Below, one piece after another: positions 5,036 through 12,637 of a DNA stretch of 64,000 nt. A model generated the notes under the pieces. It was not told where the DNA came from and made no database searches. It was given only the letters and a program-made list of their open reading frames with translations. Position 1 is the first letter of the stretch; the number at the start of each line of letters is the position of its first letter. The stretch covers positions 310,001 to 374,000 of the forward strand of contig NZ_PCQA01000002.1 of assembly GCF_002979915.1 (NCBI RefSeq), given 5' to 3'. The translations under genes were made by a program, and so were the position numbers. The stretch comes from Arthrobacter sp. MYb213 (lineage in GTDB: Bacteria > Actinomycetota > Actinomycetes > Actinomycetales > Micrococcaceae).

Positions 5036-5560
5036 TTAGGCTTCTGCCGGAGCTTCCTCGGCAGCTGCGCCACCGTTCTCTTCTTCTAGCTTCAGACGCA
5101 ATGCGTCCACGATGCGCACAGCAGCGGAGGCCGGAGCCTGCAGTACTGCAGCAACGCGAGCGAGCTGAGTTTCGCGGGATTCCAGGGCTGCCAGAGCGGC
5201 GATGCCGGCCTGGTCAAGGGCCTTGCCCTCGAAGAAGCCAGTCTTGACGACAAGCTTCTCATTAGCCTTTGCGAACTCCGTGAGGCTCTTTGCGGCAGCA
5301 ACTGCGTCACCCTTAATGAAGGCGATTGCAGTCGGACCGGAAAGCTGACCATCGAATGCATCGATGCCAACTTCCTTCGCTGCGATAGCGGTCAAGGTGT
5401 TCTTCACAACTGCATACTTGGTATCCTGACCAAGTGAGCGGCGAAGTTCCTTGAGCTGTGCAACGGTAAGCCCACGGTATTCGGTCAAGACAGCCGCAGT
5501 TGATTCCTTGAAGTCTGCAGCGATTGCTTCAATCGCTACAGTCTTGGTAGGCGTTGCCAT
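5036..5560 (-). CDS. rplJ: 50S ribosomal protein L10
   Basis: 174 residues beginning MATPTKTVAIEAI. The N-terminal domain carries the conserved LTEYRGLTVAQLKELR segment that binds 23S rRNA helix 42. The C-terminal helix, where L7/L12 dimers dock, ends in an acidic Ala/Glu tail typical of actinobacteria. GGAAGGAG lies 4-5 bases before the ATG. Upstream sequence resembles an L10 leader with an attenuator, so expression is probably autoregulated by L10 or the L10-L12 complex. Confidence 0.97.
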   Translation of the reverse strand: MATPTKTVAIEAIAADFKESTAAVLTEYRGLTVAQLKELRRSLGQDTKYAVVKNTLTAIAAKEVGIDAFDGQLSGPTAIAFIKGDAVAAAKSLTEFAKANEKLVVKTGFFEGKALDQAGIAALAALESRETQLARVAAVLQAPASAAVRIVDALRLKLEEENGGAAAEEAPAEA

Positions 5561-5747
5561 AACACTCCTTCCGGGGATTTGTTCGGTACCGTTTCATAAC
5601 CGGCGAGGCCAATAAAAAAGGCCCCGCGCAGGAGCACAGGGCATTTCAACTAATTCAAGTTAAAACAAATCTATGAAACCTGCGTTGGCCGCTCTTGCGA
5701 GCTCTTCGGGGCTTATGCATGCATAAGTCCGGCCGACGGTCTTCGGT
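5561..5747 (-). promoter_or_regulatory. rplJ mRNA leader, L10-leader-like
   Basis: The transcript from the promoter at 5754-5783 would have about 187 untranslated bases. It contains the stretch CCGAAGACCGTCGG, which resembles the L10-binding kink-turn element known from L10 leaders. It also has a GCTC-GCAA-GAGC tetraloop hairpin, a perfect 16-base palindrome CTTATGCATGCATAAG, and near its end a terminator-like hairpin. The L10_leader family is known to control rplJL by attenuation in other bacteria. Assignment here is by resemblance and position, not by a covariance-model hit. Confidence 0.6.
5611..5642 (-). terminator. Attenuator hairpin in the rplJ leader
   Basis: On the minus strand, GCCCTGTG (5635-5642) pairs with CGCGGGGC (5621-5628) around a six-base loop. 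CTTTTTTATT follows directly. This is a full intrinsic terminator about 50 bases upstream of the rplJ start, so it must be conditional if rplJ is transcribed from the promoter at 5754-5783. Confidence 0.7.
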
Positions 5748-5753
5748 ATCTCT

Positions 5754-5783
5754 AGTCTAAACGGGGATTGTGGCATCTTCCAA
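5754..5783 (-). promoter_or_regulatory. Putative sigma70-type promoter of rplJ-rplL
   Basis: Minus-strand TTGGAA (5778-5783), an 18-base spacer and TAGACT (5754-5759). Position and quality fit the promoter of the ribosomal stalk operon, with a start near 5747. Confidence 0.6.
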
Positions 5784-5830
5784 ATCGGTAGGCGCGCTGG
5801 CCCCATGATTCGACTCACTTAATGGTCGTT

Positions 5831-6006
5831 AAAAGACAAGGCCTGAAGCCAGCACTTGGGGGACGCTGACATCAGGCTACTTGTCGATATAAGAGTTTTG
5901 GGGAAACTCTTATATCCAGGTCCTACATGGTCTTGGGGGGCCCATGTAGAAGCTGCCGATCAAGTCGGTGCTTTAAGCTTATCACCACTTATTAAAGTAA
6001 AGGAAC
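5831..6006 (-). ncRNA. Candidate small RNA with three C-rich hairpin loops (6C-like architecture)
   Basis: Read on the minus strand, this stretch holds consecutive hairpins. They are an AT stem (5971-5997), a small stem (5951-5972), and an 8-bp perfect stem CTACATGG/CCATGTAG whose loop carries six C (5923-5949). Next come a 13-bp perfect stem with loop cccca (5886-5916) and a final long stem (5835-5885) with loop gtcccccaagt. The last stem ends CTTGTC and is followed by TTTT (5831-5834), as an intrinsic terminator would be. C-rich loops in consecutive hairpins are the hallmark of actinobacterial 6C RNA and related sRNAs that pair with G-rich ribosome-binding sites. Membership in that family is inference. 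A + strand open frame at 5856-6089 is judged spurious. Confidence 0.55.
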
Positions 6007-6012
6007 ACATCT

Positions 6013-6041
6013 CAGATAGATCACGGGCAAAACTCAGGCAA
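6013..6041 (-). promoter_or_regulatory. Putative promoter of the C-rich-loop small RNA
   Basis: Minus-strand TTGCCT (6036-6041), a 17-base spacer and TATCTG (6013-6018). A start near 6006 would place all the hairpins listed for the RNA inside a transcript of about 175 bases. Confidence 0.4.
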
Positions 6042-6053
6042 TTCGCATCTATA

Positions 6054-6108
6054 CCTGATTGGACAAAGCCTCTATTGCTTTACCTCTAATCAGGGCCTAG
6101 TCCCCCAG
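6054..6108. repeat. Stem-loop and loop-complementary segment upstream of the small RNA
   Basis: CCTGATT (6054-6060) pairs with AATCAGG (6088-6094), and inside it AAAGC pairs with GCTTT. Right after it, GTCCCCCAG (6100-6108) is complementary to the G-rich + strand loop at 5856-5864. If the region were transcribed rightward this could form a pseudoknot. The purpose is unknown. Confidence 0.4.
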
Positions 6109-6224
6109 CTGCCAAGAACCTGCGGTGCGACAAAACACAGCACCATGGGACGGTACTCACCTCAGCTTTTCAGCACCAAAGTTTCGCCAAGCTACCAAGA
6201 TTTCCCGCAGCTACGTGGAATAGC

Positions 6225-6272
6225 AAAAAACCGCGGGGTAGATCAGATTTCTCTGATCTACCCCGCGGTTTT
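6225..6272 (-). terminator. Terminator of secE-nusG-rplK-rplA, bidirectional
   Basis: A perfect 17-bp stem (6231-6247 with 6252-6268, loop tttc) is followed by TTTTTT on the minus strand and TTTT on the + strand. It lies 20 bases beyond the rplA stop. Confidence 0.9.
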
Positions 6273-6287
6273 AGTACTCGTTAAGGC

Positions 6288-6989
6288 TTAGGCCTCTACG
6301 CGAGTTACGTTCGAGTCAACAGGGATGCCTGGACCGAAGGTAGTCGAGATGGTTGCCTTCGAGATGTAGCGGCCCTTGGAAGAAGAAGGCTTCAAACGAA
6401 GTACTTCTTCCAGTGCTGCTGCATAGTTCTCGTTCAGCTGCTTGGCTTCGAAGGAAGCCTTGCCGATGATGAAGTGAAGGTTGGCGTGCTTGTCGACGCG
6501 GAAGTCGATCTTGCCACCCTTGATGTCGGTAACAGCCTTGGCCACATCCATGGTCACGGTGCCAGTCTTAGGGTTTGGCATCAGGTTACGAGGACCCAAG
6601 ATCTTACCCAAGCGGCCAACCTTACCCATGAGGTCTGGGGTTGCTACGGCCGAGTCGAAGTCGGTCCAGCCGCCCTGGATCTTTTCGATCAGGTCGTCCG
6701 AGCCTACGAAGTCAGCGCCGGCTGCGCGGGCTGCTTCTGCCTTGTCGCCGTTGGCGAAGACAACCACGCGGGCGGTCTTACCGGTGCCGTGTGGAAGGTT
6801 CACGGTACCGCGAACCATCTGGTCTGCCTTGCGTGGGTCAACACTCAAGCGGAAAGCAACCTCAACGGTCGAGTTGGTCTTTTCGCCTGCGATGTCCTTT
6901 GCCAAGGCAATTGCCTCGGTTGGCTCGTAGAACTTGTCAGCCACGATCTTAGCCGCGGCGGCTACGTATGCTTTGCTGCGCTTTGCCAT
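6288..6989 (-). CDS. rplA: 50S ribosomal protein L1
   Basis: 233 residues starting [15 protein letters not shown], the usual actinobacterial L1 length. The signature region [19 protein letters not shown] is intact. L1 forms the mobile stalk at the ribosomal E site and in many bacteria represses its own operon by binding an rRNA-like site in the mRNA. It is the last gene of the secE-nusG-rplK-rplA cluster, about 136 bases after rplK, and a strong terminator follows. Confidence 0.97.
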
Positions 6990-12513: not shown

Positions 12514-12637
12514 AGTGATAAGTCAAGCATGATCCATGAAGGAAAACCGGACTTGGAGCACAAGTGGGGGTCCACTAGGGGGAGAATCAGGGTAGCCCCT
12601 CATAGCGTCAACACGCTTCACGCGAGAAGATTGAACT

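Follow-up and report, generated by a model that had tools for sequence, protein, structure and literature searches.

The 6C RNA is abundant, measures about 100 nt and acts by pairing with G-rich sites in mRNAs. The trait compared here is a pair of neighbouring hairpins whose loops each hold about six consecutive C. According to the cited parts of the respective reports, 6C RNA occurs in Corynebacterium (PMC4046766), mycobacteria carry copies of it (PMC9569102), and Streptomyces has sRNAs with C-rich loops (PMC3765725). For B11, the mycobacterial form of 6C, a G-tract in the 5' UTR of eccB4 is described as the partner, with loop mutations and restored pairing (PMC10470900). The sRNA sX13 is reported to repress independently of Hfq via G-rich motifs near starts (PMC3771888), and LhrC to block ribosome-binding sites (PMC4132741). 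Among the open-licence literature matches listed on sRNAs of Glutamicibacter or Arthrobacter, on rplJ-associated C-loop RNAs and on 6C of the Micrococcaceae, no title describes the rplJ-linked RNA treated below, and none is an sRNA study of the Glutamicibacter group.

The window, the whole stretch of 64,000 nt analysed, comes from a Glutamicibacter genome of 3,785,151 bases. Judged from fold and conservation, the minus strand of its rplA-rplJ spacer encodes a real structured RNA, whose ends are most likely at about 5969 and 5831. The order on this strand is the end of rplA, a terminator, the RNA, the probable rplJ promoter, the L10 leader and rplJ. Predicted length of the RNA about 139 nt. The fold consists of four consecutive hairpins with almost no linkers; the C-runs are the exposed bases. 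The small 5' hairpin, CCGA...UCGG (5968-5956), forms part of the 5' end and is not among the hairpins given in the earlier note. C-loop hairpin 1 (5955-5917) has a perfect 8-bp core, CTACATGG/CCATGTAG, and CCCCCC at 5940-5935. C-loop hairpin 2 (5916-5886) has a perfect 13-bp stem and CCCC at 5903-5900. C-loop hairpin 3 (5885-5835), likely the terminator stem, is long, carries CCCCC at 5862-5858 and is followed by TTTT (5834-5831). These stems, the loops with six, four and five C and the TTTT are all read in the sequence as the earlier note gave them. Fold z is -6.44 for the 201 nt of 5820-6020 (minus strand) and -7.78 for the trimmed 139 nt, with none of 200 dinucleotide shuffles as stable in either case. 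The plus strand folds less strikingly (z -3.14).

In an alignment of 16 species (A3), 93.9% of the cells are paired, against 79.0% in shuffled alignments and at most 41.3% with slid partners. Changes on both sides affect 29 of 46 pairs, and 0 of 500 shuffles reach the covariation score. By element, pairs changed on both sides number one in the small 5' hairpin (100% of cells paired), 10 of 13 in hairpin 1, 7 of 9 in hairpin 2 and 11 of 20 in hairpin 3. An 11-species alignment gives 28 of 50 pairs changed on both sides. Read on the minus strand it holds 78 G-U cells against 4 A-C cells, which assigns the selected structure to that strand. Column identity in the 16 species is 1.00 in loops, 0.72 in stems and 0.56 in flanks. 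Not one of the 18 loop columns, a threefold CCCCAA, varies, whereas the stems change in a compensatory manner. Exposed C-rich loops that are better conserved than the stems are the mark by which a C-loop antisense sRNA is recognised, and the RNA bears it. A MAFFT alignment of four genera (A4) was left out because it breaks the helices of hairpins 2 and 3. The conserved structure supports the proposal that the minus strand specifies a C-loop RNA with three such loops. Alignment of the rplA-rplJ spacer in relatives, named beforehand as a check, gave compensatory changes with stems and C-loops conserved.

The RNA is preceded by an extended -10 element, TGATAAGCT (5984-5976, minus strand), with the consensus TGNTANNNT. 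It is present in 27 of 27 copies examined (16 from Glutamicibacter and 11 of the 19 accepted from other genera; 35 accepted in all), with T, G, T, A and T invariant in the 16 species. In 15 Glutamicibacter copies the consensus precedes the initial CCCCAA by 45-47 nt; for the sixteenth (L046) the distance, -80, is counted from the second loop. In the 11 copies from other genera it stands 66-73 nt 5' of the first CCCCAA, with a longer 5' hairpin between. A different promoter, TTGCCT-17-TATCTG, was put forward in the earlier note for an RNA of about 175 nt spanning 6006-5831. The motif is present near 6041-6013, but as a promoter it decays in close relatives and was rejected: in place of its -10 stands TGTCTG in G009, a 91% identical copy, and G004 has TGCCTG, while TGNTANNNT is kept. 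Since that -10 is unconserved and TGATAAGCT lies in a conserved element, the RNA probably starts near 5969 rather than 6006, and the longer outline is given up at its 5' end.

Within 5560-6290 a simple consensus scan reports neither a sigma-70 promoter complete with -35 nor a terminator at hairpin 3. The scan requires a -35, so that an extended -10 alone escapes it. Of the 16 Glutamicibacter copies, 8 have a T-run (at least four T) directly or one base 3' of the last stem and 8 have none there; the putative terminator is therefore convincing in the clade of the window only. Upstream the unit is bounded by the intrinsic terminator of rplA (6272-6227, minus strand; 20-bp stem and T-run). Downstream lies the L10 leader of rplJ (5764-5606, minus strand; RF00557, 25.6 bits, below the cut-off of 44), the sole match of RF00557, which gives none over the RNA itself, and then rplJ (PF00466, minus strand). 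A strong terminator on one side and this leader on the other mark the RNA off as a unit of its own, in agreement with the independence first suggested for it. The probable rplJ promoter, TTGGAA-18-TAGACT (5783-5754, minus strand), is our reading, separate from the RNA and likewise unflagged by the scan; similar boxes occur in G005 and G010, both without the RNA. Between the RNA and this promoter stands GTGA-N6-TCA (5818-5806, minus strand), which resembles a CRP/GlxR-type operator. Similar sites occur in several Glutamicibacter spacers, and because they are kept in G005 and G010 the site probably belongs to rplJ.

A DNA search of 58 genomes matched the spacer in part of the genus. A covariance model built from 11 copies (R1) finds the RNA in 16 of 18 Glutamicibacter genomes; the best E-value is at most 6.4e-20 in each. 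In the remaining two, G005 and G010, the rplA-rplJ spacers are about 360 nt long and have no C-loop hairpin; the rplJ promoter boxes and leader are kept. Loss in 2 of 18 genomes indicates that the RNA is not essential there. The loop pattern matched 30 stretches in named records. Ten are from the Glutamicibacter group (Glutamicibacter ardleyensis, creatinolyticus, soli, nicotianae, uratoxydans, protophormiae and sp. PS; 'Arthrobacter' sp. MYb214, MYb229 and NIO-1057); the other 20, scattered over unrelated taxa, are presumed to be chance. In 464 kb of the window's own genome R1 gives the known copy and one chance-level match (E 2). CCCCAA pairs show no genome-wide excess in this genome (13 matches, 16 in the backward control). 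Further clusters of CCCCAA-loop hairpins occur in it at L103 (G000:C1, about 783481-783626), partly overlapping a predicted small ORF, and at L108 (G000:C8, about 386763-386887), between two predicted genes. Diverged copies in G002 and G017 (66.7 and 52.3 bits with R1; L048:1501-1634 and L049:1501-1635, both minus strand) stand upstream of a gene read by us as aldo/keto-reductase-like; two of their loops are C-rich and the third no longer is. Two Glutamicibacter genomes (L051:1501-1592 and L053:1501-1603, both minus strand) have a shorter RNA, with two instead of three C-loops and with a T-run terminator; R1 matches it weakly (20.8 and 18.4 bits).

Copies also occur in three further genera of the family, here g11, g44 and g51. 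An L1 match was obtained in 46 of 46 family genomes, and 30 loci were inspected, 28 of them from other genera. The inspected flank includes rplJ in 8 of the 28. A three-C-loop RNA stands before it in four (L118 and L121 of g11, L122 of g44, L124 of g51); none was found there in L115, L120, L125 and L131. The loop pattern matched 60 of 395 family genomes. Accepted carriers are 35: 16 of 18 in Glutamicibacter, 4 of 4 in g11, 14 of 15 in g44 and 1 of 1 in g51; the other matching genomes are read by us as coding repeats or chance. The hairpin filter used on inspected loci is imperfect: 39 of 82 loci passed, eight of these 39 being judged tandem repeats (L146-L149, L152, L158, L261, L280), and nine accepted loci (L121 and L124 among them) failed, having two long stems rather than three. 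On given loci R1 scores 47.8 bits (L184), 42.3 (L186), 39.9 (L124), 32.7 (L121), 27.0 (L118), 26.1 (L122), 23.8 (L192) and 23.7 (L179). Over 295 family genomes, with 10 candidates per genome scored, it gave the 16 genus genomes and a weak partial match in G168. These negatives count little, since copies of g44, g51 and g11 were later matched at given loci. A pattern search at order level covered 297 genomes, of which 273 belong to other families and 24 to the own family. It gave no convincing match beyond the family; with so strict a pattern, diverged forms would be missed. It matched 24 genomes, G000 and G017 among them; the other 22 are read, from the matched strings and, for inspected loci, the hairpin filter, as coding repeats or chance. 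In all 7 inspected g44 copies rplJ lies downstream. Upstream of L186 and L188 there appears to stand a gene other than rplA, a transporter by our reading of the translation, which indicates that the linkage is to rplJ.

RNAs of another build share the loops. Each of the 14 matching genomes of g44, a sister genus, has a second string, form B. In eight copies (L175, L178, L180, L183, L185, L187, L190, L193) three C-loop hairpins stand inside an 18-bp closing stem; the loops keep CCCCAAG, and 20 of 52 pairs changed on both sides. Form B adjoins a kinase gene with a HisKA_3 domain in L180, the sole copy tested. Form C (L176, L181, L194) has a further long hairpin downstream and a T-run, and stands in L176 and L181 after what we read as a guaB-like gene. 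Form D (L189) has a further long hairpin downstream. The occurrence of related RNAs at places unlinked to rplJ argues for action in trans.

The RNA is probably an independent, trans-acting C-loop RNA of about 139 nt with its own promoter, a divergent and extended relative in kind of 6C. The extended -10 promoter in the rplA-rplJ spacer would drive a non-coding transcript ending at the third C-loop hairpin, and the tandem hairpins would leave the three C-rich loops as nearly the sole unpaired bases. A loop would pair in trans with a G-rich stretch at or near an mRNA start and block translation; three equivalent loops would give redundancy or multivalency. Hairpins 2 and 3 would represent the 6C core, with a C-loop hairpin added in front. 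By analogy with 6C/B11, sX13 and LhrC, antisense action on G-rich mRNA sites is likely, and the RNA may switch genes off through G-rich start sites.

Kinship with 6C was examined with the Rfam model RF01066 (gathering cut-off 47 bits), the covariance search named in the earlier note. No match is found in 5815-5985 even at E 10, nor in 5300-6500. The cut-off is exceeded in 0 of 18 Glutamicibacter genomes and 3 of 36 genomes overall; the control match, the known 6C RNA of C. glutamicum, is also below it. Rfam 6C is passed by the rplJ-linked copies of two of four g11 genomes, G101 (50.0 bits; listed twice, as L192 and L160) and G027 (49.6 bits), with modest E-values (0.0007-0.0016) that two adjacent C-loop hairpins could also reach by convergence. 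A third g11 copy, G078, scores 45.1 bits, and G123 (contig edge) gives no match. One of five given g44 copies (L179) scores 35.2 bits; L124 of g51 gives none. Related g11 copies that reach the model support the suggested kinship; the window RNA itself goes unmatched. In g11 copies the model aligns to hairpins 2 and 3. In the window these two are adjacent, with C-runs of four and five, and the six-C loop of hairpin 1 falls outside the part covered. Graded scores of this sort would be expected if a 6C-like RNA had drifted and gained a hairpin in front. Two 6C-like loci in two other family genera (L061, 46.3 bits; L062, 38.9 bits) have one or two extra C-loop hairpins beside the 6C core.

A plain 6C RNA, missed by the Rfam model through divergence and new only in an extra hairpin, is the strongest alternative, possible if on the unlikely side. 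The g11 and g44 scores, the sub-threshold control and a weak match of R1 to L061 (22.3 bits) speak for it; three C-loops with runs of four to six C, the missing match in the window and the convergence allowed by the modest E-values speak against. A broader reading, put forward tentatively and thought rather unlikely, sees in Glutamicibacter and related Micrococcaceae a so far unrecognised class of multivalent RNAs that is expanding. Scaffolds of unlike build (tandem hairpins, or three of them enclosed by the 18-bp closing stem) would present a common CCCCAA(G) loop to one fixed partner, a protein or one conserved RNA, instead of to many mRNAs, with 6C as smallest member.

For the divergent 6C-like RNA, targets were sought among mRNAs. 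Of 392 predicted genes (464 kb), 5 have TTGGGG within 35 nt upstream of the start, compared with 1-4 for each of 14 permutations, so that the word is not enriched. With a mean of -6.8 kcal/mol, the real loops show no advantage in pairing over 10 shuffled sets (-7.4 to -9.1 kcal/mol), though they pair better around starts than 60-110 nt upstream (-6.1 kcal/mol). The best-looking G-run site, before an mrpC-like gene (L210; Oxidored_q2), has an attractive energy but was rejected, the sequence CTTGGGGG being intact in 2 of 18 genomes and partly in a third. The G-rich stretch before the PspC gene (12553-12582), suggested earlier as a target, was likewise dropped. Its G-tracts are found about 60-72 nt upstream of the start codon, outside the ribosome-binding site; one persists in G005, which is without the RNA, and in G004 and G006, which carry the RNA, the 125 nt upstream of the start contain no GGGG. 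At 12553-12600 an element of AGGGG..CCCCTAGGGG and CAGGGTANCCCCTCATAGCG separates two PspC-type genes that are transcribed divergently. It can be recognised in most of the 18 Glutamicibacter genomes and looks like a promoter or operator region. As the target tests point to no regulon, the mechanism is drawn from anatomy and analogy.

A docking or sponge RNA, of which a protein reads CCCCAA in the loop and the three loops bind multivalently with no need of mRNA pairing, would suit these negative pairing-based tests. It would suit also the invariance of the AA beyond the C-run and the recurrence of the loop on differently built RNAs. It is nevertheless judged improbable, since the closest analogue tested by compensatory mutation, B11, works by pairing according to the cited part of its report (PMC10470900). 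A cis-acting leader or attenuator of rplJ-rplL is still less probable. The RNA does stand upstream of rplJ in four genera, L186 and L188 with their different upstream gene included, and read-through is conceivable in the half of the genus copies that have no T-run; however, rplJ has its own probable promoter and leader downstream, kept in the RNA-less G005 and G010, and RNAs resembling this one occur at a distance from rplJ. A plus-strand G-loop RNA or a DNA element, to which the plus-strand fold and a mechanical 77-aa ORF overlapping there might point, is hardly credible given the G-U excess on the minus-strand reading and a promoter motif oriented with that strand.

The probable trans-acting C-loop RNA turns a guess made on one genome into an RNA gene backed by comparative genomics, and provides a link from canonical 6C RNA to longer forms with more loops. 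With loops frozen in 16 species, stems drifting and loops reused in other RNAs, it offers a clean test case for the partners of 6C-type loops. The C-loop kind of RNA (6C) is, in our judgement, known; the three-C-loop variant linked to rplJ is new.

Among known systems, the L10 leader (RF00557) shares spacer and strand with the RNA, but differs in structure and lies behind the probable promoter of rplJ. LhrC of Listeria is similar in its redundant C-rich sites in one RNA and its several copies per genome, as given in the cited part of the report (PMC4132741). Compared by description, it differs in its CU-rich UCCC motif, in one site that is single-stranded and in its host, a member of the Firmicutes. 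sX13 of Xanthomonas, in the part of the report cited, has three stable stems with three apical C-rich loops (PMC3771888); Xanthomonas is an unrelated bacterium, and the likeness is one of described anatomy. 6C/B11, which is actinobacterial, shares the adjacent hairpins with C-rich loops, whereas the window RNA has three C-loops and a 5' hairpin, with C-runs of six, four and five followed by AA. Strictly no member of 6C; 6C-like in structure, and perhaps by descent.
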